Assembly: GCA_024742495.1 (NCBI GenBank)
Contig: JANSYJ010000003.1
Span: 372,001-436,000, forward strand
Direction of reading: 5' to 3'
DNA: 64,000 bases
Source: Bacteroidota bacterium
GTDB taxonomy: Bacteria; Bacteroidota; Bacteroidia; Flavobacteriales; Schleiferiaceae
In this document: in pieces, positions 3,246 to 13,175 of the stretch
Position numbering within the stretch: position 1 is the stretch's first letter
How the letters are laid out: every line of letters begins with the position of its first letter
Notes under the pieces: generated by a model
Told to the model about the DNA's origin: nothing
Seen by the model: only the letters and a program-made list of their open reading frames with translations
The model's database searches: none
Position numbers and translations under genes: made by a program

Positions 3246-4331
3246 TTGTCATATTTGCCATTGAGAATTTCACTAGTGAAGGAAATAAGTACAAAATCGA
3301 AGGTGTTTAAACTAGAGATGGACTTGCATACAGGCCAGCTAAGGCCTTCGCCCTCATTCTACTCTATAGCAGGGCTAGATGCGAAAAGTAATGCTGAAGA
3401 AAAAGCCTTGTTTGATGCCGTTCATGCGGATGACTTGGAAGGTCTAAAAGCGACCTTTGAAGCGGTTCAGCAATCGAAGAAAAGTGCTTCACTAGATTTT
3501 CGAATTATTGATTCTTTAGGTACCCTTATCTATTTAACTGCGGAAGTGAGTCTTGAAACCCATAGGCAGATGGAGGAGCCCATGCTATCCCTTTTTGCGA
3601 TAGTTAATAATGAGCAAGTGCGGGTTCAAAAGCGAATCCGAGAAATGGAGGACCTTTTGGAAATGAAGGATCAGGCGATATCAATGATAGCCCATGATCT
3701 AAGGAATCCGATAGCCCAGTTAGATGGGATCTTGAAAATGCTCTTGCATGAAACGGAGAATAGCGAGGCCAAGGATCTCATTAATATGGGAAGCGACTCG
3801 GTTAATCATGCTTATGAAATCCTCAGGGATTTGAATGATGCTACGAGGAATAAAGTGGAGGGAAAGAGCATTAGTCTTAGTCCAACCGATTTAAACGCTA
3901 TGCTTAACAAATGTGCCGAGGCCTTTAAGTTAAGTCTAGAATCCAAGGGTTTGCATTTAAGTGTAAAAGCGCCCAAGGATTTTTATGTGAGTATTAATGA
4001 GCAGAAAATGATTCGCGCTATTGAGAATCTAATTTCAAATGCCATCAAATTCTCAAGCGAAGGCAAGGGCATTGAATTAATGGCTTGGGAAGAAAAAGAT
4101 CGCTACTGCATAGCTGTGCAAGATTCTGGTATTGGAATGCCAGAACACATTCGCAAAAGTATTTTTAATGGAATCTCTAAAAGTGTGCGAAGAAGCGGAA
4201 CTGCTGGCGAAAACTCGGTAGGTATTGGCTTGAGCATCGTTAAAGGAGTGGTTGATTTACACCACGGCCGAATTGTAGTGGAGAGCAAAGAAGGAGAAGG
4301 TTCTAAGTTCACGATTTGCCTTCCTAAATAA
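3246..4331 (+). CDS. PAS-domain sensor histidine kinase
   Basis: A soluble two-component sensor kinase. Residues about 15-120 form a PAS-like fold (F-K-L-E-M-D-L-H-T-G). A short coiled linker leads to the HisKA H-box M-I-A-H-D-L-R-N-P (phospho-acceptor His150), then a HATPase_c domain with N-box I-E-N-L-I-S-N-A, G1 box D-S-G-I-G-M and G2 box V-G-I-G-L-S-I-V. No membrane segment is present, so it probably senses a cytoplasmic signal. No response regulator is adjacent. The reported start is a TTG; a GTG at 3276 would give a shorter protein that still contains the whole PAS fold, so the start is uncertain. Confidence 0.88.
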   Translation: MSYLPLRISLVKEISTKSKVFKLEMDLHTGQLRPSPSFYSIAGLDAKSNAEEKALFDAVHADDLEGLKATFEAVQQSKKSASLDFRIIDSLGTLIYLTAEVSLETHRQMEEPMLSLFAIVNNEQVRVQKRIREMEDLLEMKDQAISMIAHDLRNPIAQLDGILKMLLHETENSEAKDLINMGSDSVNHAYEILRDLNDATRNKVEGKSISLSPTDLNAMLNKCAEAFKLSLESKGLHLSVKAPKDFYVSINEQKMIRAIENLISNAIKFSSEGKGIELMAWEEKDRYCIAVQDSGIGMPEHIRKSIFNGISKSVRRSGTAGENSVGIGLSIVKGVVDLHHGRIVVESKEGEGSKFTICLPK

Positions 4332-4369
4332 GAATCCCATTCTCATAATAAATTAGTGAAAAAACAAAA

Positions 4370-4391
4370 CCCCACATAAATGCGGGGCTTT
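4370..4391. terminator. Bidirectional terminator between convergent genes
   Basis: CCCCACAT and ATGCGGGG pair with one mismatch around a two-base loop. The + side runs into CTTTATT and the - side into a T-rich stretch, so it can serve both the kinase gene and the motor operon that ends here. Confidence 0.7.
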
Positions 4392-4444
4392 ATTACATGG
4401 AATTGTATAAGCTTAATCCATGCTGAGGGGGGGTATTAAAATTG

Positions 4445-6553
4445 TTATTCTCGAGCTTTATCTAGGAAAATGGATAGTCCTAAATGTCCTTGAAAATACC
4501 AGTCGTTTAATCCATCTACTGATCTGGAAATATTATCGCGAGGCAAATCCAAATTCCCTACTGCTCTAGAGAGGTCGCCATAAGTCGCTTCGGTTTGATG
4601 ATGCTCTAAAACTGAATTTCGATCACCGCCATACCATAAACCCGGACCGAAGTCATCAAGGTAATCGGTGCTGGTATATTGTCCTCGAATCTCACCCTTA
4701 AGGGCGAAGTTTTTAAATAACCAAGTAGTGGAAAAACTCAAACCCGCTGTAAATGCCAATTGCGAATAGGCTTCGGCGCCAGGTAAAAAGTTCTGCCCTT
4801 CAGAGCCAAGCTCCCGAAGATTAATGCGCGTTGGTTTCGCCCGCTCGAGGTATTCAAAGTAATTCTCATCCTCCAGGCGGCTTAAGTATTTGGTGCGATA
4901 AGGGGTAAAGTGCATGGCGCCGAGAGAAAGGCCTAAAGCTGGTACGAGGGTGGACCATTTATTGGCTGGAAGGCGATAGGGCCTAAGATGCCAAATTCCC
5001 TCAAGCTCTAAAATATTCATATTGGTGATGAAATTGGCTTGATAAGACCATTCGTCGAGCTCTACTTCCTCATACTCCTCATTATGACCCATTAATGGCG
5101 CGGTTCCAGAGAAAAAGCCCGCCGCAGAAAAATCATGGATGGAAATGCTACTGCTGTAATAATTAAGCTTAGCCGAAAAGCGCGTGTTAAAATTGTATTG
5201 CAAATAAGCTCCAAAGCTAATATCGATAGTTGATGGCAGATAAATAAGATCGTCAATCAAGCTAAACTTAGGTTTAATATCCCCGGCGCCATAGAGAGCG
5301 CCGCCGCCCCAAAGTCCAATTTCCCAACTTTTAAGGCTTTGAGTATTACGAGTGAAAAAGTCGTGGGCCTTTTGCGCTCCTAACTCAATACTATTCAAAA
5401 AGACGGAAGAATTTTGTACTTCTTCAAGGGCAATCGTTTCGGCCTTTTCTTCTACATATACTTCTTCATTTTCAGGAGCTACAGGGGTGCTATCGATTTT
5501 AGGCAATACTATTTTATAGAAGTTGGCTAACTCTAAAAACTTTGCTGCCTCGCCTTGGTATTTCAAATAAACGGTATCCTTTGAAACCGAAAAATCGAAA
5601 TCCAAAGATTGAGAACGTGCATCGAGCAGTTTAAACTGAAGGTTTTTTCGTTCAATTTGTTTTACGCGCAAACTTAAAAGGCCTGGGCTATGACTAATAA
5701 CACTATAGTCGGTTTGCTCCTTGCTTTTAAGAGGCCTTAAATTTAGAATGTTAATTCGACCAATGCGGGGATCAATCGTTTGGTCCAAAACAGGAACAAA
5801 AGGCGCCTCTGTGGCTACGGATTTCAGGTCGAGCTCCTGATCGAAATTACTACTTAAGGAAATGTAAATTGGTTGATATTCAAAGCGATTACGATCAAAA
5901 ATAAGCTCACCAATAGGAGGGAGTTCCACGGCCTCTTTGTAAATTTCTAGGTGTAATACCGATTGCTCTGGCCCATCGAAATAATTATCTCGAAATAAAA
6001 TTTGATCGATCTCATAGTTAACCTGTGGGCTGCCATAGGCTTCAATTACGATTCCCGCTCTATTGTTTTGCACCTGCAGATTTCTTATTTCAATATCGAG
6101 CTCCGAACCTTTGCGAAGGTCCACGAAAGGATCGCCGAGGTAAAAAACGGGCTCCCCACTAGTTGAACCGCTAAAGTTGAGATTGGTGAGTATTACCTCA
6201 TCACGCTGCCAGAAAGGATCAAAACGCAAGGCCTGTACTAAACCTTTAAAATGCACATAACGAATTTTGAGCTTGGCACTTGCGTTTTGACCTTGAACTT
6301 GGATACCAATTGCTGGGCGTAAAGGATCTTGATTAATTATTTCAACCGGATGGTCTTCATCACCTTCGAGGCAAAGTGAACCTTCTACTATTAAAAGAAC
6401 TCCAGGGCCTAATTCAATCACACCACCTGCGTAGGATTCTAAACTGTCTTGCTCATTAATAAAGGTGCTTTGGGAGAATCGGAGCGTATCTTGAGCCATC
6501 CCCGATAGGTAGCTGACAAAACAAAGGAGGAAAAGGGGGTATTTATACTTCAT
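4445..6553 (-). CDS. Beta-helix plus outer-membrane-barrel protein of the GldLM-like operon
   Basis: Last gene of the GldLM-like operon. The signal peptide (ends M-A-Q-D) is followed by about 350 residues with alternating short hydrophobic strands and repeated asparagine (L-T-N-L-N-F, I-R-N-L-Q-V, F-R-D-N-Y-F), the look of a right-handed parallel beta-helix. A glutamate-rich linker (about residues 365-390) leads to a C-terminal barrel of about 300 residues with G-L-W-G-G-G-A-L-Y-G at its first strand, E-G-Q-N-F and T-D-Y-L-D-D, features of the DUF6089-type outer-membrane barrel. It plausibly sits in the outer membrane with the beta-helix in the periplasm. The ATG at 6553 gives a clean signal peptide; an ATG at 6565 is possible. 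It overlaps the upstream GldM-like gene. Its role as the output partner of the motor is inferred from operon position. Confidence 0.72.
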   Translation of the reverse strand: MKYKYPLFLLCFVSYLSGMAQDTLRFSQSTFINEQDSLESYAGGVIELGPGVLLIVEGSLCLEGDEDHPVEIINQDPLRPAIGIQVQGQNASAKLKIRYVHFKGLVQALRFDPFWQRDEVILTNLNFSGSTSGEPVFYLGDPFVDLRKGSELDIEIRNLQVQNNRAGIVIEAYGSPQVNYEIDQILFRDNYFDGPEQSVLHLEIYKEAVELPPIGELIFDRNRFEYQPIYISLSSNFDQELDLKSVATEAPFVPVLDQTIDPRIGRINILNLRPLKSKEQTDYSVISHSPGLLSLRVKQIERKNLQFKLLDARSQSLDFDFSVSKDTVYLKYQGEAAKFLELANFYKIVLPKIDSTPVAPENEEVYVEEKAETIALEEVQNSSVFLNSIELGAQKAHDFFTRNTQSLKSWEIGLWGGGALYGAGDIKPKFSLIDDLIYLPSTIDISFGAYLQYNFNTRFSAKLNYYSSSISIHDFSAAGFFSGTAPLMGHNEEYEEVELDEWSYQANFITNMNILELEGIWHLRPYRLPANKWSTLVPALGLSLGAMHFTPYRTKYLSRLEDENYFEYLERAKPTRINLRELGSEGQNFLPGAEAYSQLAFTAGLSFSTTWLFKNFALKGEIRGQYTSTDYLDDFGPGLWYGGDRNSVLEHHQTEATYGDLSRAVGNLDLPRDNISRSVDGLNDWYFQGHLGLSIFLDKARE

Positions 6554-7934
6554 CGCCAATAACATTAATGATTAAGCGGTCGCTGATGCTAAGTGGACCA
6601 TCCAGGCTTTGGACCGTTACTTCCTGGATTTCGATATACTGCAAGTCTTCAACCGCTTGCGCTGTTAAGACAATAGATTCTTCAAAGCTCATTAGTTCCG
6701 AATGATCGGGATGGTGGAACAGGGCTTTGATGGATTTAATTTGAAACTTTAAACCTTTGGGTTGATTTGGGAAAAGTACTTTTAAAGGAATCTCTTTTAG
6801 GCGGCGCAAGCGACTGCGTGAAACTTCATTGGCTGATATGCCGCTGGTGTAAATTAAGGGTGCAGGCAATGGATGCACGTAAACTGAATCTTGAAAGGCA
6901 AGTGCCTGCAATTCGCTCGTAAAGCCCTTGATACGGCACCAACCGGAGCGTATCGGTTGTATTCTTAAAATTTCCTCCTTCTTTTTAGGACGGGAGCCAG
7001 CCATGCAGTCGCAGCTGTATTTAAGTGCTTTTTGCCAACTATTAAGCGGGATGTCGAAGGCTAGTCCGGTGTAATTGGCTAAATCTTGAAAGGGAAGGCT
7101 ATTGCGGAAATTACCGGGTAGTACTTTAAAGGAATAAAGCTTTTGCTCTTGATTTAAGGTAAAAGTAAACTCGTAATAGCCTGTGTCCAGGGCCATAAAG
7201 CGCAGCGTGTCATTTTCCCAAACATATTCTTCGCCCCCCTTATTATTCACTTTTATTTCCAACATGGGACGCTCTTGCCCAGAATAAACAAAATAGGCGG
7301 TATCGCCGATATGCAATCGATCGATATTGTAAGCGAGAATAAAGCTTGGCTTTCCCTTTGAAGCTTCATCGCTAATTTCTAATTCACCCTGAAGCAGATT
7401 TAGTTTTAAAATTAAGTCCGAAAGTTCTAATCGGGCAACAGAAGCGGGAACGTGTTTAAATTTCCATTCCAACCATGTCAGTGCCGATTCCTCACCTAGG
7501 CCATGTATTAAATCTTGTTCAAATAAGTAGGCAAATTTTTGGCGAAGAGGATCATTCGGATTTAATGCAAAAAGTGAATCTTTAACTTTTATCAAAACCT
7601 GAAAAAGGCGTTCTCCTTCGGGCGAATTAAGGTAAAACTGATCACTTAAGGCATAGTTCTCGGGCTGCTTGAGTTTACCAGTTTCGGGCTTAAGACCAAC
7701 GAGCTCAGTGAAGGACTGATCGATATTGAGAATAATGCTTTGCGCTGATTGCAATAGGGGGGATGCTAAATTCTCGGATTTCACCGAAAGGAAGGTGTTT
7801 CGCATTTCTGGACTAACACGCAACCAATCGATTGGAATTTGAATAATAGATAGGGAAATGAATAGCAGGTATAAAATGCTAATCAGCTTATAGCGAAGGT
7901 TTTTCGACTTTTTTATTCGGATATACTTCGCCAT
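6543..7934 (-). CDS. GldM-like motor protein, paralogue B
   Basis: 463 residues. One N-terminal membrane helix (about residues 17-35, around L-Y-L-L-F-I) is preceded by a basic segment; the rest is periplasmic. GldM features visible: helical first domain with T-W-L-E-W-K-F-K-H-V-P followed by a helix, then beta domains and an end segment with P-L-P-A-P and L-K-F-Q-I-K-S-I, like the last two domains of GldM. In gliding bacteria GldM is a dimeric shaft that turns inside a GldL ring and spans the periplasm. Arg14 aligns, ungapped from the L-Y-L-x-F motif, with the membrane-proximal Arg9 of Flavobacterium GldM. It shares I-x-K-S-K-N-L with the upstream paralogue, indicating duplication. Its start overlaps the preceding stop by one base. 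Confidence 0.8.
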   Translation of the reverse strand: MAKYIRIKKSKNLRYKLISILYLLFISLSIIQIPIDWLRVSPEMRNTFLSVKSENLASPLLQSAQSIILNIDQSFTELVGLKPETGKLKQPENYALSDQFYLNSPEGERLFQVLIKVKDSLFALNPNDPLRQKFAYLFEQDLIHGLGEESALTWLEWKFKHVPASVARLELSDLILKLNLLQGELEISDEASKGKPSFILAYNIDRLHIGDTAYFVYSGQERPMLEIKVNNKGGEEYVWENDTLRFMALDTGYYEFTFTLNQEQKLYSFKVLPGNFRNSLPFQDLANYTGLAFDIPLNSWQKALKYSCDCMAGSRPKKKEEILRIQPIRSGWCRIKGFTSELQALAFQDSVYVHPLPAPLIYTSGISANEVSRSRLRRLKEIPLKVLFPNQPKGLKFQIKSIKALFHHPDHSELMSFEESIVLTAQAVEDLQYIEIQEVTVQSLDGPLSISDRLIINVIGDEV

Positions 7935-9337
7935 TATTTCCTGCGTATTAAGGTTCGACCATCACGATAAGTATTTCCATTTTTTCCAATCACTCTAATG
8001 TCCTGAAAGGCAAAGAGACTGCCACCGGGCGCATTTTGGATGGCTTCTTTCATATCGGGACCAAGAAAACGGGTGGCATTCCTAAGTATCTTTTGACGAC
8101 CATTTGGCTGCGTAATTTTTAATTGAAAGCTCACAACTTGCCAAAAGGGATTAAGCGCTTGCAAGCGGATGGCTTCCTGGCCGGTATTTTCCTTTCCCGC
8201 GATATCCATTAAAGCTACATCAATAAGCTTTACATCCTTGGCGTAGAGGTTAATAGAGTCTAGTTTCTTGTCTTCTGCCATCATGTAAACCGTAAATATC
8301 CCTGATGAATAAGGGGTAATCCTTAATTCGTCGTTTTTGAATTCGATTTCAGCATTCTTCGATTCAAACTTTACTTCTGGATGAGGAAGGTAATTGGGGT
8401 TTATAAAAATGGATTGGCTTTCTCCAACTTGACTAAGGAAAGTGCTTTGTTCTTCACGAAATCTAAACCCGGCTTGGTTTACTGTAAAGTTGTAGAAATA
8501 GTGTTCCCCTTCGTAAAGTAAGTCTAAACTGTAATGGCCCGTTTTTGGCGGCTGGTACTCGAAATAGATATAGGCCGAATCGCTGAATTTGGGTTCAATA
8601 GAAACTCTGTTTACCCAAGCCTGAAACAATTTTTCTTCAGACGCGGCTTTTAGTTTAAAGAAGAGCTTTTCGCCGGGAGCGAGACTCTTTTTAAAATTAT
8701 GAATAAGATCCAAAGCACCTATATCCAATGCTTTAGGGTTTTGTAGACTTGGTTTCTCTCCTTTTAAGTACTGAAGGCTATTCATGAGAATTAAGCTGCG
8801 GATGTGCTCGAGCACTGAGGTCAGCGCGCCATTAGGGGTGTCTTTAAAGAAGAAGTTTAAGCCAGCATGTTGCTGACCGTTAAAATCATCCAACAGAAGC
8901 AGATCACTACTTAAGTCCTTTCCAGTACTGGCTTTATAGGTTTTCACAAATGCTTCCAAGCTTTGGAATAAATCTTCTCCGGCCTTGCCTTTTAGTAGTT
9001 GCTCATTTGCAAAGTGACTTTCCTTTAATTTTTCGCCGCTCATTGTGGCACCTTGGAGATAGTCTTTTAAATCTAATGCCAGCCTACTTATACTTTCGAG
9101 ACTTGCCAGGCTTTGCATTTTCAGTTCTTCTTGCTGCTTATTGACCGTTTTGAATTCTTTTAATTGCTTTAGAAGGGCCTTATTTAGTTCGGTTTGAGCA
9201 GGTTCTAAGTTCTGATAGTGCTCAACAAACTTCCCCGGACTGGATAGAAAGAGGAAGAGGATGAAAACCAAATAGAGGAAACTTAATTTTTTAAAAATCA
9301 AGTTTTTAGATTTTGATATTTTAACGGTATTCGGCAT
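7934..9337 (-). CDS. GldM-like motor protein, paralogue A
   Basis: 467 residues with one N-terminal helix carrying F-L-Y-L-V-F-I, nearly identical to the M-Y-L-V-F-I-A of canonical GldM. The first periplasmic domain is helical and charged and contains F-F-F-K-D-T-P-N-G-A-L followed by a helix, the GldM pattern. The C-terminal part matches the last GldM domain: V-V-S-F-Q-L-K-I and L-F-A-F-Q-D-I-R-V-I-G-K-N-G. At the position of the conserved membrane-proximal arginine this copy has Ile14, with Lys16 and Lys17 nearby, unlike paralogue B. It starts three bases after the GldL-like gene. Two unequal GldM copies behind one GldL suggest a heteromeric shaft; that is inference. Confidence 0.85.
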   Translation of the reverse strand: MPNTVKISKSKNLIFKKLSFLYLVFILFLFLSSPGKFVEHYQNLEPAQTELNKALLKQLKEFKTVNKQQEELKMQSLASLESISRLALDLKDYLQGATMSGEKLKESHFANEQLLKGKAGEDLFQSLEAFVKTYKASTGKDLSSDLLLLDDFNGQQHAGLNFFFKDTPNGALTSVLEHIRSLILMNSLQYLKGEKPSLQNPKALDIGALDLIHNFKKSLAPGEKLFFKLKAASEEKLFQAWVNRVSIEPKFSDSAYIYFEYQPPKTGHYSLDLLYEGEHYFYNFTVNQAGFRFREEQSTFLSQVGESQSIFINPNYLPHPEVKFESKNAEIEFKNDELRITPYSSGIFTVYMMAEDKKLDSINLYAKDVKLIDVALMDIAGKENTGQEAIRLQALNPFWQVVSFQLKITQPNGRQKILRNATRFLGPDMKEAIQNAPGGSLFAFQDIRVIGKNGNTYRDGRTLIRRK

Positions 9338-9340
9338 TGT

Positions 9341-9925
9341 TTAGGCCTCCATCACTTGGTCGTAGCGATCATTAATCGCTCTTAGATTATCATTGTAATG
9401 GTCCATAAGCTCATTGAAAGTGCTCATCTGGCTTTTCATTTCTTCCGAATTGCGAGCAGAATCTTCGATATTCTCTCGAATATCAACTAAGCTTTCCGAA
9501 AGGCTTTGGATGTTTTGGCTTAGGTCGCCAAGGGTGCTAGCGAACTGGTTCATGGCATTACCATAGGCCATAGCATTAATGGTCGACTGCGAGTCATCCG
9601 CTTGCAATTGTGGAAAAACTTGTTCCCATTTGTATTCGATTTCCTCTTCCTTACGCTCGAAAGCGGAGATGAGAAAAACGATGGCCTCTATACTTAAGCC
9701 GATAATAAACAGCTCGTTAGCGAAAGCCCAACCCAAGAATTTAAACATAGCACCAACCAAAACTACTGCGGCGCCAAAACCGTAGATAAAGGTTATTATA
9801 TCTAGCTTACCCTTAGCCTCTACCTTCGTATGTACCGACGCTTCTTTCTTGAGTTGGGCATTTCCATTTTTAGGAATATTTCTAGTCATTTTTGACGTGT
9901 TTTTAAGTTTGGCTTGCTTTTTCAT
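9341..9925 (-). CDS. GldL-like proton-channel motor protein
   Basis: 194 residues. Two closely spaced membrane helices (about residues 43-64 and 70-89) carry G-F-G-A-A-V-V-L-V-G-A-M-F-K and G-L-S-I-E-A-I-V-F-L-I-S-A-F-E, the hallmark of GldL, the ring-forming proton channel of the gliding/type IX secretion motor. Glu80 and Glu90 keep the ten-residue spacing of the two conserved glutamates of Flavobacterium GldL (Glu49 and Glu59), so proton use is plausible. After the helices comes W-E-Q-V-F-P-Q-L, then a long helical cytoplasmic tail. Unusual is a basic N-terminal extension of about 40 residues before helix 1; canonical GldL starts almost at the helix. It overlaps the upstream gene by four bases. 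Confidence 0.88.
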   Translation of the reverse strand: MKKQAKLKNTSKMTRNIPKNGNAQLKKEASVHTKVEAKGKLDIITFIYGFGAAVVLVGAMFKFLGWAFANELFIIGLSIEAIVFLISAFERKEEEIEYKWEQVFPQLQADDSQSTINAMAYGNAMNQFASTLGDLSQNIQSLSESLVDIRENIEDSARNSEEMKSQMSTFNELMDHYNDNLRAINDRYDQVMEA

Positions 9926-10461
9926 GAAACTGACTTCTTTAAAAAGTGATCTTGAAATTGGTTCCAGCTGGCTAGATTCTGTTTCAATCCACGTTTTAGC
10001 ATAAGCTTATTGAAAGCAAGGAATAGGATGATGAGAATTATACCGGTGGCTGCGGCATATATAAGCTCCAGCTGAATGCGACTATCTAGAGTAGACTGCA
10101 TTTTTTGGGCATATTCATTTTGGGCTTCAAACTTGGCTTGGAAATCGAGGAGGGCATTATTAAGCGCCCGCTCTGTTTGGGCTTGGCTAGCTTGAAAGCG
10201 TTCCATATTCTTGGTAAAGGCTGCCAATTCCAATTGAAGATTTTCATTTAATGAATCGTTGCGACTGCGGATAATCTCCAATTGATATTGAAGGTTTCGA
10301 AACTGCTTAGATTGAATATTTAGACTTCTATTTAGGTATTGGGTTTTCGCCTCGAGCGATTTAATAGAAATCTGATTTTGTTGGATCAAGAGACTATCAT
10401 TTTGCGCTATACAAAGGGGTGAAGCCAAAATGTAGAAAAAGAGACAATAATGTTTCAGCAT
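9922..10461 (-). CDS. Signal-peptide, coiled-coil, single-helix protein of the GldLM-like operon
   Basis: First gene of the operon. 179 residues: signal peptide (about 1-19, ends C-I-A-Q), a predicted periplasmic coiled coil (about 22-130, rich in Q, N, L and E), one membrane helix (about 132-151), then a short basic cytoplasmic tail. It therefore probably hangs in the inner membrane with the coiled coil in the periplasm. It is not GldK or GldN and I do not recognise the family. The ATGA overlap with the GldL-like gene argues for translational coupling and a shared complex. Possible roles are motor assembly, peptidoglycan anchoring or plugging; none is shown by the sequence. Confidence 0.7.
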   Translation of the reverse strand: MLKHYCLFFYILASPLCIAQNDSLLIQQNQISIKSLEAKTQYLNRSLNIQSKQFRNLQYQLEIIRSRNDSLNENLQLELAAFTKNMERFQASQAQTERALNNALLDFQAKFEAQNEYAQKMQSTLDSRIQLELIYAAATGIILIILFLAFNKLMLKRGLKQNLASWNQFQDHFLKKSVS

Positions 10462-10484
10462 GATTTGAACGGTTGGGGGTCATT

Positions 10485-10514
10485 CAAATGTAGTTTTTAA
10501 CTACTTATTAACAA
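10485..10514 (-). promoter_or_regulatory. Promoter of the GldLM-like operon with an inverted repeat in its spacer
   Basis: On the reverse strand TTG (10512-10514) is separated by exactly 19 bases from TACATTTG (10485-10492), matching the Bacteroidota -33/-7 consensus. The ATG follows at 10461, so the leader would be short. Between the boxes, GTAGTT-TTT-AACTAC (10490-10504) is a perfect 6-bp inverted repeat and a possible operator. The region is very AT-rich. Confidence 0.6.
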
Positions 10515-10522
10515 GTCTTGTC

Positions 10523-10635
10523 AAATATTTTTTGATACATATTTATATGGAATTTATATTACTATAAAATATTGATATTAAATTATTAAGAAAAGTTTCT
10601 TCGATATAAATGATATTACTAAATATTTTTTGATA
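10523..10635. repeat. AT-rich direct repeat pair upstream of the motor operon
   Basis: A 15-base sequence, AAATATTTTTTGATA, occurs at 10523-10537 and again at 10621-10635 in the same orientation, just upstream of the promoter. It may be an upstream protein-binding or curved-DNA region. Confidence 0.5.
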
Positions 10636-11107
10636 TTAAGAACACCTTGTTTTATGGCGTGTTTTCATGGATAAGCGCACTTCATTGAATTTTCGTCTGA
10701 AAGAAGCCATTGTAGAAAAAGTTAGAATTTTATCTCTCGGTTTTTGTTATTTGTAGTCAATCTCTATTGCTGGTGATTTTTGGAGCTCAGACCGCTGCGC
10801 TTTGAGCTCAGACGGCTTCGCTTTAAGGGCAGATCGCTTCGCTCTTAGATGTTAGACCTGAGACCGGTCGCTTCGCTCCCTTTTAGATTAATTTGCTGCT
10901 AAGAGGTTGGTTATGGTTCCAAATAGTCATTCTCTAATCCGACTCAATACTATTTAGTGAAAACCTGTTTCAATATTGAATCGCTGTTTAAGTTTTAACT
11001 GAAAACGTATTGACGAATTGCTACAACTAGCAAAAAACGGCACTTCGGAGCGAGGAGGGCCCTGAGCAGCAATAATCGCTCGCGGGGCAGCCCTTAGAAA
11101 AAAGGAG

Positions 11108-11340
11108 CTAATAAAAATGAATAGGATTTTAATGAAATCGTCATTCGTGCTGGCCCGGCCCAAGAGTCGATGGTCTGTGGGCAAACCGCAGGTTGGACCG
11201 CAGAATTGCCTTTTCAGGGGCCTAGCGTTTTTGCCTACTTTTTGGGCAATGCAAAAAGGAGGAGGAGGAAGATCGCTTCGCTGCTAGAACTGAGAACTGA
11301 GATCAGTCGCTGCGCTCCTTGAGAGACGAATGGCGTTTTA
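11108..11340. repeat. Duplicated intergenic element, copy 1
   Basis: Starting near AATAGGATTTTAATG and ending near GGCGTTTTA, this copy matches 11724-12028 with only scattered substitutions. It is uninterrupted: the core CGCTTCGCT is followed directly by GCTAGAACTGAGAACTGAG. Confidence 0.8.
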
Positions 11341-11723
11341 GAATAGCAGGTAATACTCAATAGCTAGAGTTTCCAGGAATATAATAAAGCACCGCTTTTA
11401 GAACATTTATAGCTAACTGTATTGCTTAGTTGCCGGCCCTAGGGTGCTGCGCTTTTAAAATGGAAGTAGGCGACTGTTTGAGTTGGGAGTTGAGGCTGAA
11501 AGCCGAAACCATGAACTCCTTTAAAAAATTAATTAGTTGTTCATAACCGACGGCAGGAGATCGCCCACCGAAAAAGGAGACTACAAACATTTGAAAAGTA
11601 AAGTACCCAGGCCATGATTTTTTGGTTCTTTTTACGAATGGCTTGTTCATTTTCAAAGGAATTCGTGAGCTCCGGCTGAAGCCGTCGGTTCATCCAAGAA
11701 AAAAGAAAAAAAAGAAGGAAGAA

Positions 11724-12028
11724 ATATTAAAATTGATTAGGATTTTAATGAAATCGTCATTCGTGCTGGCCCGGCCCAAGAGTCGATGGTTTGTGGGCAA
11801 ACCGCAGGTTAGACCGCAGAATTGCCTTTTCAGGGGCTTAGCGTTTTTGCCTAATTTTGGGCAATGCAAAAAGGAGGAGAAGAATGATCGCTTCGCTTTT
11901 ATGGTTCGGCAAGCTCACTATGACAGTGTAAACCTTGTCACCCCGAGCTTGTCGAGGGGCCGCTTCGCTGCTAGAACCGAGAACTGAGATCAGTCGCTGC
12001 GCTCCTTGAGAGAGGATTGGCGCTTTAA
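11724..12028. repeat. Duplicated intergenic element, copy 2, carrying a 72-base insertion
   Basis: Same element as 11108-11340 in direct orientation. After CGCTTCGCT (11889-11897) it carries 72 extra bases that end in another CGCTTCGCT (11961-11969), after which similarity to copy 1 resumes. The insert contains a TGACA...TTGTCACCCCGAGC unit. Confidence 0.8.
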
Positions 12029-12202
12029 AGTAATGAGCATTTTACTGTAAAAAATCTCACCTTGACAGCCTAAACCTTGTCATCCTGAGCAAAGTCGAAG
12101 GGCTTACCATGACATCGTTTAAGTTGTCACCCCGAGCCTATTGAGGATGAACAAGCTCACCATGACAACCTAAACCTTCTTAACCTGAGATTCTCGTGGG
12201 GC
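11898..12202. repeat. Cluster of REP-like units
   Basis: Four related units of the form TGACA-n-AAACCTTGTCAyCCyGAGC lie at about 11919-11960, 12062-12102, 12105-12146 and 12162-12202 (the third and last degenerate). The TGACA/TGTCA pair and the CCCCGAGC/GAGGGG pair can each fold. Similar intergenic units are known from many bacterial genomes; no REP-associated transposase is in this window. Confidence 0.6.
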
Positions 12203-12239
12203 AAAAAATATAAGCGATAGTGTTTTAGCTGAAGAGGCC

Positions 12240-13175
12240 TTATGGACTGCTAATGTTCTCCGCATTTCGGAAGTGATCATAGTGGAAATAGGTAAATCCT
12301 CTAAATTTTAGATGCTTGTCCAAATCTTGATCTACCGCTTTTAATTCTTCGAAGAACTTTTTTTCTGCGAGATGAAAATCATGCCGTTTGAGATAAGGGC
12401 CCAAATAGCGTGACTCTAAGGAGTATAGTATTGAAACCTGAATATGGGGTCTTTCCCGCTCCAATAGGTGCAGACGCTTTTCTACATATGGAAACAGGTA
12501 TGCTTCTCTTTTCACATAATCATGCACCAAAAGTCGATCTACATGGGTGCATATTTGCTTGACCTCCGCCTCCTTGAAATGGCCAATGTAGGCCTCTACC
12601 AGTACTTTCTTTTCTAATTCATCGGCAAGAGCCCTTACAATTTCCAGTGACTTTATAAAAAACTGAAAGGAACTAGCTCTATCACAAGGCATTTGGTTTT
12701 TTTCAAGATAGCTAGTACAGTAATAGCCTCCCGGATCAGATTGAGAGTTATTCCAGTATTCATATTCCAAATTATAGATATCGAATCTTTCTAAACTGTC
12801 TTTACTTGATCTATTATAGGGATGGATAACCTTGAGAAAAAAATCCCCGCTTTCACCAGCAGCACTAAGCTTTTTAAGTCCATACTTGGTTTTAGCTTTA
12901 CGAATGAAATTGGCTAAAATTTGATTTTCCGAATACTTAGTTAGAGGGTACTTCTGATTTACAAGATGCAGGTCATAAAGAATTAGCTCAGTTATTTGAT
13001 GCTGCCGTATAAAGGCAAAGAGCTGCTGTTGTTGCTGCTCCGATTCTAATATTTGATTGAACTTATTAACGTAAAGACTTCGATGCTTGTAGGGGTCCGC
13101 AGAGGCATACAAGAATTGACTCCATAATAGAAGTGAAGTGATTAATAAATAAGTAGGCTTTAATATGAGCTTCAT
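12240..13175 (-). CDS. Exported hypothetical protein, possible TIM-barrel fold
   Basis: 311 residues with a signal peptide (hydrophobic 8-21, ending Y-A-S-A). Not recognised as a named family. Alternating strand-like and helix-like segments (I-T-E-L-I-L-Y-D-L-H, K-K-L-S-A-A-G-E, K-K-V-L-V-E-A-Y-I-G-H, V-D-R-L-L-V-H-D-Y-V) suggest a beta/alpha barrel like those of exported glycosidase-like proteins, with acidic residues at strand ends (D52-like, E in A-G-E, E in V-E-A). That is a fold guess, not a function. The ATG at 13175 is used; the frame extends to an upstream TTG. It is a single gene next to the repeat island. Confidence 0.6.
   Translation of the reverse strand: MKLILKPTYLLITSLLLWSQFLYASADPYKHRSLYVNKFNQILESEQQQQQLFAFIRQHQITELILYDLHLVNQKYPLTKYSENQILANFIRKAKTKYGLKKLSAAGESGDFFLKVIHPYNRSSKDSLERFDIYNLEYEYWNNSQSDPGGYYCTSYLEKNQMPCDRASSFQFFIKSLEIVRALADELEKKVLVEAYIGHFKEAEVKQICTHVDRLLVHDYVKREAYLFPYVEKRLHLLERERPHIQVSILYSLESRYLGPYLKRHDFHLAEKKFFEELKAVDQDLDKHLKFRGFTYFHYDHFRNAENISSP

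Follow-up and report, generated by a model that had tools for sequence, protein, structure and literature searches.

A candidate accessory GldLM-type motor with two unlike shafts and its own PorG-like outer-membrane barrel in Bacteroidota

We analyzed a 64,000-nucleotide stretch of the genome of a Bacteroidota bacterium of the Schleiferiaceae (contig JANSYJ010000003.1, positions 372,001 to 436,000), here called the window. It carries a five-gene cassette encoding, in gene order, a coiled-coil membrane protein (C), a GldL-type channel protein (L), two GldM-type shaft proteins (M-B and M-A) and an outer-membrane protein (O) in which a beta-helix precedes a barrel of the PorG kind. We suggest that the cassette encodes a GldLM-type motor that works without a ring, probably has a heterodimeric shaft and acts directly on the PorG-like barrel of O. 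It would join a known motor family to an outer partner of its own and to an asymmetry of the axle. The genome has a normal gldKLMN, sprA, gldJ and porG set elsewhere, and the cassette is therefore accessory.

Results

The cassette is separate from the canonical motor genes

A second GldL of the same genome (G000:C28:155648) lies on another contig within a porP-gldK-gldL-gldM-gldN cluster, whose genes were named by their order and by reading of the sequence, gldL also by a profile match. SprA (2556 bits, on another contig), GldJ (over its cut-off) and PorG (139.9 bits) are present as well. The idea that the cassette is the only GldL/M set of the genome is ruled out by this second, canonical set. 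A preliminary description of this DNA had reported GldK, GldN and SprA to be absent and called for a search for the canonical set; the absence holds for the cluster, and all three are present elsewhere in the genome.

Named bacterial and archaeal genomes were scanned with the accessory GldL alignment. The best 80 of the 104 confirmed stretches split into two kinds without mixture, 45 accessory loci (L024-L068; a count within these 80, found with two peptide patterns) and 35 canonical loci (L069-L103). Every canonical locus matches gldK or gldN (gldK 34, gldN 33). No match to gldK, gldN or porP was obtained in any of the 45 accessory loci, some of which have short flanks (the sequence available reaches 8,000 bases or more upstream of L in 28 loci, and as far downstream in 23). 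Constant inclusion of type IX genes in homologous clusters would have refuted the preliminary description; these loci, like the second GldL/M set, are in its favor. The five-gene order proposed from the window recurs in 30 of the 45 loci (C-L-B-A-O); another 8 end at a contig edge before O, and 7 are variants with two shafts (L061-L063) or one shaft (L064, L066, L067, L068). Wherever the contig continues, O follows M (37 of 37 loci). Two different cassettes, L031 and L038, were found in one genome (G507), which reflects either a second cassette or a contaminated assembly.

Since no neighbor family recurs in more than 6 of the 45 loci, the cassette looks self-contained. The attempt to read a function from the neighbors failed for the same reason, the loci that share a neighbor family being those of close relatives.

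Within the family, L finds a match at an E value of 1e-10 or better in 85 of 88 genomes, and 11 of the 88 have two GldLs, one that scores as canonical and one accessory. Six of the seven genomes of the genus carry an accessory GldL. The cassette order was read in ten other genomes of the family, where some contigs cut O and where C was assigned by position only in L021-L023. Further afield the cassette is rare. A sample of 394 genomes of the phylum contained one case at an E value of 1e-28, and among 393 genomes of the order to which the genome of L061 belongs there were 3, all of them already known.

This patchy spread would fit a decaying or redundant gldLM duplicate with no present function, an explanation that we consider extremely unlikely. 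For all five genes the ratio of nonsynonymous to synonymous substitution rates (dN/dS) is 0.016-0.057 in one pair of close species (L016 and L017) and 0.011-0.43 in another pair (L021 and L022), C being the weakest. The gene order is intact in 30 loci, and the accessory GldLs form a separate ancient clade. Since dN/dS is low for all five genes, M-B is not a decaying copy. The 45 named loci, with purifying selection on all five genes in one close species pair, place the recurrence of the cassette above chance.

L is a GldL with conserved charged residues

The reading of L as a GldL-like channel, with two glutamates at the spacing of the conserved pair, is borne out. L reaches 94.8 bits with the NCBIfam model TIGR03513, above the curated cut-off of 68.3, and matches the Pfam family GldL_N at an E value of 2.8e-24 (85.5 bits, cut-off 24); GldL corresponds to TIGR03513 / PF22827. 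It is also matched by the solved GldL chains 7sau, 7sat and 6ys8. No MotA, ExbB or TolQ is among the families listed for L up to an E value of 1, a list from which most matches above about 0.1 were filtered out.

Glu80 and Glu90 of L align with Glu49 and Glu59 of Flavobacterium johnsoniae GldL, with the same ten-residue spacing. In F. johnsoniae, Glu49 is reported to be required for secretion and motor function, and Glu59 to be needed for the movement of SprB, not for its secretion (PMC8986121). In the alignment of accessory GldLs (A9; 36 of the 46 accessory L proteins, near copies omitted), the Glu80 position is Glu in 36 of 36 and in 35 of 35 canonical proteins. Tyr48, Lys62 and Glu80 are invariant across both groups. 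Position 90 of the accessory proteins is Glu in 30, Gln in 3 and Asp in 3. The two groups part at residue 65, which is His in all 35 canonical GldLs and Gly in 34 of the 36 accessory ones. They also part in a GldL tree of 36 accessory and 36 canonical rows, in which the accessory proteins form one clade with a support of 99 and some long branches meet. The conserved charged residues suggest that the accessory motor is energised.

M-A and M-B are GldM-type shafts with different charge patterns

The two GldM-like shafts of the preliminary description are recovered at the level of families and not by models of single proteins, since neither M-A nor M-B of the window individually matched a GldM model in Pfam or NCBIfam up to an E value of 1. 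By hhalign, the family of M-A and single M proteins aligns with canonical GldM over the full length (99.9%, E 5e-31, 441 columns), as does the M-B family (97.4%, E 1e-11, 433 columns). The M-A and M-B families match each other at 99.8%, and the O profile, the negative control, matches GldM at 0.2%. Among the 38 M-A or single M proteins, 18 are matched by Pfam GldM_1st and 7 by TIGR03517 (GldM/PorM; best E 2.9e-32).

In Foldseek, the first three matches of the structure model of M-A (mean predicted local distance difference test score, pLDDT, 79.9) are PorM and GldM. In a second structural comparison, the top four matches are PorM/GldM chains (Z 9.6-12.8). M-A fits the C-terminal part of PorM at 3.7 A over 177 residues; the root-mean-square deviations from multi-domain PorM/GldM chains are high, as is expected for a jointed rod. 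The structural match lists, here and for O, do not extend over the whole of the models, so that a fold missing from them carries no meaning.

The two shafts differ at the position of GldM Arg9. All 38 M-A or single M proteins and all 18 canonical GldMs have Arg there. None of the 35 M-B proteins does, their residue being Ser (14), Asn (11), Ile (5), Thr (4) or Leu (1). The M-B alignment (A7) holds 35 of 39 proteins, namely that of the window and 38 from the loci, with truncated ones omitted. Three residues further on, all 35 M-B proteins have a basic residue (Lys 26, Arg 9), which is found in 0 of 38 M-A or single M proteins and 0 of 18 canonical ones. The register in the window is free of gaps (SKNL-RYKLISI-LYLLF in M-A, SKNL-IFKKLSF-LYLVF in M-B). 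The ion pair between this Arg of GldM and a Glu of GldL is implicated in proton use (PMC12239597). In L061 (9540-11060), the upstream shaft copy has Gln at the Arg9 position, apparently an independent loss of the Arg.

Canonical GldM is a homodimer in the known structures, and cassettes with a single M exist. Both facts would suit two homodimeric motors sharing one type of L ring, L5:(M-A)2 and L5:(M-B)2, with no heterodimer. We consider this arrangement unlikely, since each of the 30 five-gene loci has M-A and M-B as direct neighbors in one fixed order, and since an M-B homodimer would lack in both chains the Arg of the ion pair implicated in proton use (PMC12239597). We favor an M-A/M-B heterodimer.

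The shaft gene appears to have been duplicated twice

The trees indicate that the shaft gene was duplicated twice independently, giving a Flavobacteriales-type and a Bacteroidales-type pair. In a careful tree of 40 of the 94 rows, in which long branches meet, M-A and M-B each form a clade and are sister to each other (99/94), and a further clade unites the two shafts of L061-L063 (100/100). M-A and M-B pair gene by gene. M-A and M-B were not united in a quick tree made earlier from all 94 rows.

A single duplication shared by all two-shaft loci was also considered and is rejected. Approximately unbiased (AU) tests reject a clade of M-A and the second copies of the Bacteroidales (p 0.0147), and likewise one of M-B and their first copies (p 7e-5); these groups were named after an earlier tree had been seen.

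O joins a beta-helix to a barrel of the PorG kind

The structure model of O (mean pLDDT 83) bears out the beta-helix/outer-membrane-barrel protein that had been read from the sequence. A parallel beta-helix comes first, followed by a disordered linker, a helix and a set of eight long strands. Among the structural matches of the barrel are OmpA (Z 15.3, 173 residues) and related small barrels. Because barrels of this type with an even number of strands keep both termini on the periplasmic side, the beta-helix of O is placed in the periplasm. The PorG profile matches 29 of 32 members of the O family (best E 6.4e-34; the O of the window only at 0.004) and DUF6089 matches 6 of 32; no solved structure was matched by sequence by the O family. 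These counts refer to the O alignment (A5; 32 proteins, cut or split ones omitted). The O of L034 (L034:4385-7012), one of these 32, runs off its contig and, with at least 876 residues, is longer than the others.

PorG is an eight-stranded barrel, and a cysteine in its C-terminal tail bonds to Cys343 of GldK in the moving track (PMC12635249). A cysteine is found in the last 45 residues of 31 of 31 canonical PorGs and of 0 of 32 O proteins. PorG was searched for in 32 of the 44 cassette genomes and was found in 31. The cysteine was read at 30 of these loci and at that of the genome studied here, in the longest open frame over the locus center. Thus, O lacks the GldK-linking cysteine in just the setting in which GldK and GldN are absent from the cassette, and it carries a fused beta-helix instead. 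One of the genomes has several PorG-type barrels side by side (G539:C44:8595-11065), and similar pairs occur in other genomes searched for PorG.

ExbBD-TonB and TolQR are inner-membrane proton-driven complexes that act on an outer-membrane partner, a layout similar to that proposed here. The cassette could by analogy be an energiser that pulls on O or gates it, either in transport or in the upkeep of the outer membrane or of glycans, with no rotation of a cargo. In keeping with this, polysaccharide lyases and tailspikes are structural matches of the beta-helix of O (Z up to 18.8), which may bind glycans, and two Bacteroidales relatives have an upstream protein, one with a weak SPOR-like match (E 0.0074, below the cut-off). 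Even so, we regard such an energiser as quite improbable. L belongs to a different protein family, being a GldL with no ExbB, TolQ or MotA match in the list described above; an eight-stranded barrel normally offers no pore for transport; the beta-helix is a widespread fold that does not reveal a function; and genes for glycan or transport functions do not recur in the neighborhood of the cassette.

Organization of the cassette

All coordinates of the cassette are window positions (Table 1). As in the preliminary description, the minus strand carries five consecutive genes that overlap or abut. They are the open reading frames (ORFs) C, L, M-B, M-A and O, which span 4445-10461 in the ORF list. 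L and M-B are separated by three bases; every other pair of neighboring genes shares 1 to 23 bases.

Table 1. Features of the cassette in the window
Feature	Position	Strand	Description and basis
Promoter candidate, TTG-N19-TAnnTTTG	10485..10514	-	Exact match; 24 bases before the first gene, C
C	9922..10461	-	ORF; signal peptide, periplasmic coiled coil, one C-terminal membrane helix, short conserved cytoplasmic tail
L, GldL-like channel	9341..9925	-	GldL profile matches; Glu80, Glu90, Tyr48 and Lys62 kept
M-B, GldM-type shaft	7934..9337	-	hhalign; Ile14 in place of the Arg9 equivalent, Lys17 basic
M-A, GldM-type shaft with Arg14 as the Arg9 equivalent	6543..7934	-	hhalign and fold match to PorM/GldM
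O, beta-helix and outer-membrane barrel	4445..6565	-	Structure model, fold matches, PorG profile of the family
Parts of O (predicted)			Signal peptide, beta-helix at about residues 27-353, linker, helix 387-405, 8-stranded barrel at about 410-700
Intrinsic-terminator-like stem-loop after O	4363..4394	-	14 pairs, T tail

The consensus promoter proposed earlier, whose pattern we take to be of the Bacteroidota type, is the sole match in the window; 1.7 matches are expected by chance, and the site is for this reason weak evidence of a promoter. Terminator-like sites number 7 in the region, compared with 8.8 expected in shuffles, which is within chance.

C keeps its position among relatives and its sequence only weakly, and no Pfam family matched it; its topology was read from the sequence. 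The C profile derives in part from ORFs assigned by position alone (L021-L023), and the C matches in L057, L058 and L065 are circular because the same contigs fed that profile. For canonical GldL, one study notes that direct evidence of its anchoring is lacking (PMC9389320). Larger membrane proteins stand in the place of C in L062 (458-1666) and L063 (7691-8908), and the weak SPOR-like match of the former is a possible tie to peptidoglycan. We do not claim that C binds peptidoglycan, given that this match is below the cut-off and that L063 has none.

A histidine-kinase-like gene (3246-4331) adjoins the cassette. It stands beside O also in L014-L017, which are of the same genus, and not elsewhere. 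Upstream of the cassette, about 1.7 kb (10515-12240) hold only short and unconvincing ORFs, and this side varies among the genomes of the genus.

Discussion

The features described above suggest how the motor would work. GldLM has a 5:2 stoichiometry (PMC9389320), and in a similar assembly two shaft helices would be surrounded by five copies of L, which would make up the proton channel of the inner membrane. These helices would most likely belong to a heterodimer of M-A and M-B. Only the Arg of M-A would then pair with the channel glutamate, and the basic residue of M-B would be placed about one helix turn further on. We hypothesize that the shaft spans the periplasm and acts on O without a ring, a track or a disulfide, the beta-helix of O standing in both for the GldK/GldN ring or track and for the PorG cysteine that bonds to GldK. 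The PorG-type barrel of O, and with it any cargo, could thereby be turned or pushed in the outer membrane. C may hold the ring of L.

The closest known system is GldLM/PorLM, the proton-driven 5:2 motor of gliding and of the type IX secretion system (T9SS). The cassette shares with it the GldL family, the Glu49, Tyr and Lys positions, an operon in which M follows L, and the full-length architecture of GldM with its N-terminal membrane helix and Ig-like domains. It differs in that it usually has two unlike shafts, with the Arg9 equivalent in M-A only, that His is replaced by Gly in GldL, that gldK, gldN and porP do not adjoin, and that its GldLs form a separate clade. Similarly, O and PorG (DUF6089), the 8-stranded outer-membrane protein of the T9SS, are of the same barrel family by profile and have the same number of strands, eight being predicted for O; unlike PorG, O has about 700 residues and an N-terminal beta-helix, lacks the cysteine of the C-terminal tail and is encoded with its own motor. 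AglR-AglQ-AglS, the gliding motor of Myxococcus, combines one channel protein with two unlike shaft paralogues as the cassette does (PMC9389320). However, those proteins are of the MotA/MotB type and have different outer partners. Whether AglQ and AglS, the shafts of another 5:2-type motor, form a heterodimer is left open by Rieu et al. (PMC9389320). In searches of open-access literature, which covered few subscription journals and no preprints, no account of a second GldLM set, a heterodimeric GldM or a PorG with a beta-helix was obtained.

Several observations weigh against a heterodimeric, ring-free motor acting on O. Position 90 is other than Glu in 6 of the 36 accessory GldLs. In single-sequence scans, M-B proteins match filamin-type repeats in 9 of 35 cases and GldM_4th in 6 of 35, and filamins of the PDB outrank PorM for M-B; since the outer domains of GldM are also Ig-like, we take this as a caution and not as a contradiction. 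The O of the window scores 16.9 bits with the PorG model NF052316, below the cut-off of 130. L062 and L063 keep the Arg in both shaft copies, homodimers of each shaft are possible, and the single-M versions in L064, L066, L067 and L068 indicate that two shafts are unneeded for the basic function. Lastly, gldK is found in 43 of 44 cassette genomes (in 42 over the curated cut-off, in one split over two contigs) and GldJ matches in 40 of 45 genomes including that of the window (10 over the cut-off), so a link to the T9SS or to the gliding track is possible.

Such a link is the basis of another explanation, in which the accessory motor and the canonical GldLM both power the same GldK/GldN ring or track, with O serving at the outer membrane as a guide or brake. 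Alternative stators can drive one flagellum, and besides the occurrence of gldK and gldJ, this explanation can draw on PorG in 31 of 32 cassette genomes, on the full-length GldM architecture that M retains and on the PorG kind of the O barrel. We nevertheless think it rather unlikely. The O proteins lack the GldK-linking tail cysteine (32 of 32), and the cassette always includes O where the contig continues (37 of 37) and never K or N. Most members of the family have a T9SS anyway; nearly all family genomes (85 of 88) have a GldL that scores as canonical, so the co-occurrence of gldK is weak evidence and does not decide the matter. The preliminary description had suggested for the motor an outer-membrane target other than the type IX translocon. 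The gene content agrees with this, but the barrel of O is of a T9SS family and gldK accompanies the cassette in nearly every genome. Full independence of the cassette from the T9SS is likely.

Returning to the ring-free motor on O, a stricter form of this proposal can be put forward tentatively. The cassette would be a track-free and ring-free branch of GldLM whose shaft, an obligate heterodimer carrying basic residues at two depths, drives a single barrel directly. Because the Arg was lost from the upstream copy in each line (in all M-B proteins and in L061), the asymmetry of the axle would, on this stricter form, have been selected. If this is true, the motor would rotate with five strong steps per turn compared with the ten of the canonical motor, or the Arg-Glu stepping model would need rethinking.

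How 5:2 motors step is an open question, for which the cassette offers a natural test. In canonical GldLM, the roles of the single shaft chains cannot be separated by simple mutation because both chains are identical. Here, the shafts have been made unlike, and kept so, at the residue thought to pair with the proton-carrying glutamate. A five-protein system of the GldLM type with no adjacent ring, track or T9SS translocon could also be used to study the transfer of force from the shaft to the outer membrane. The presence of gldL and gldM alone is no proof of a type IX system, and the cassette points to a possible new role for proton-driven motors in Bacteroidota.

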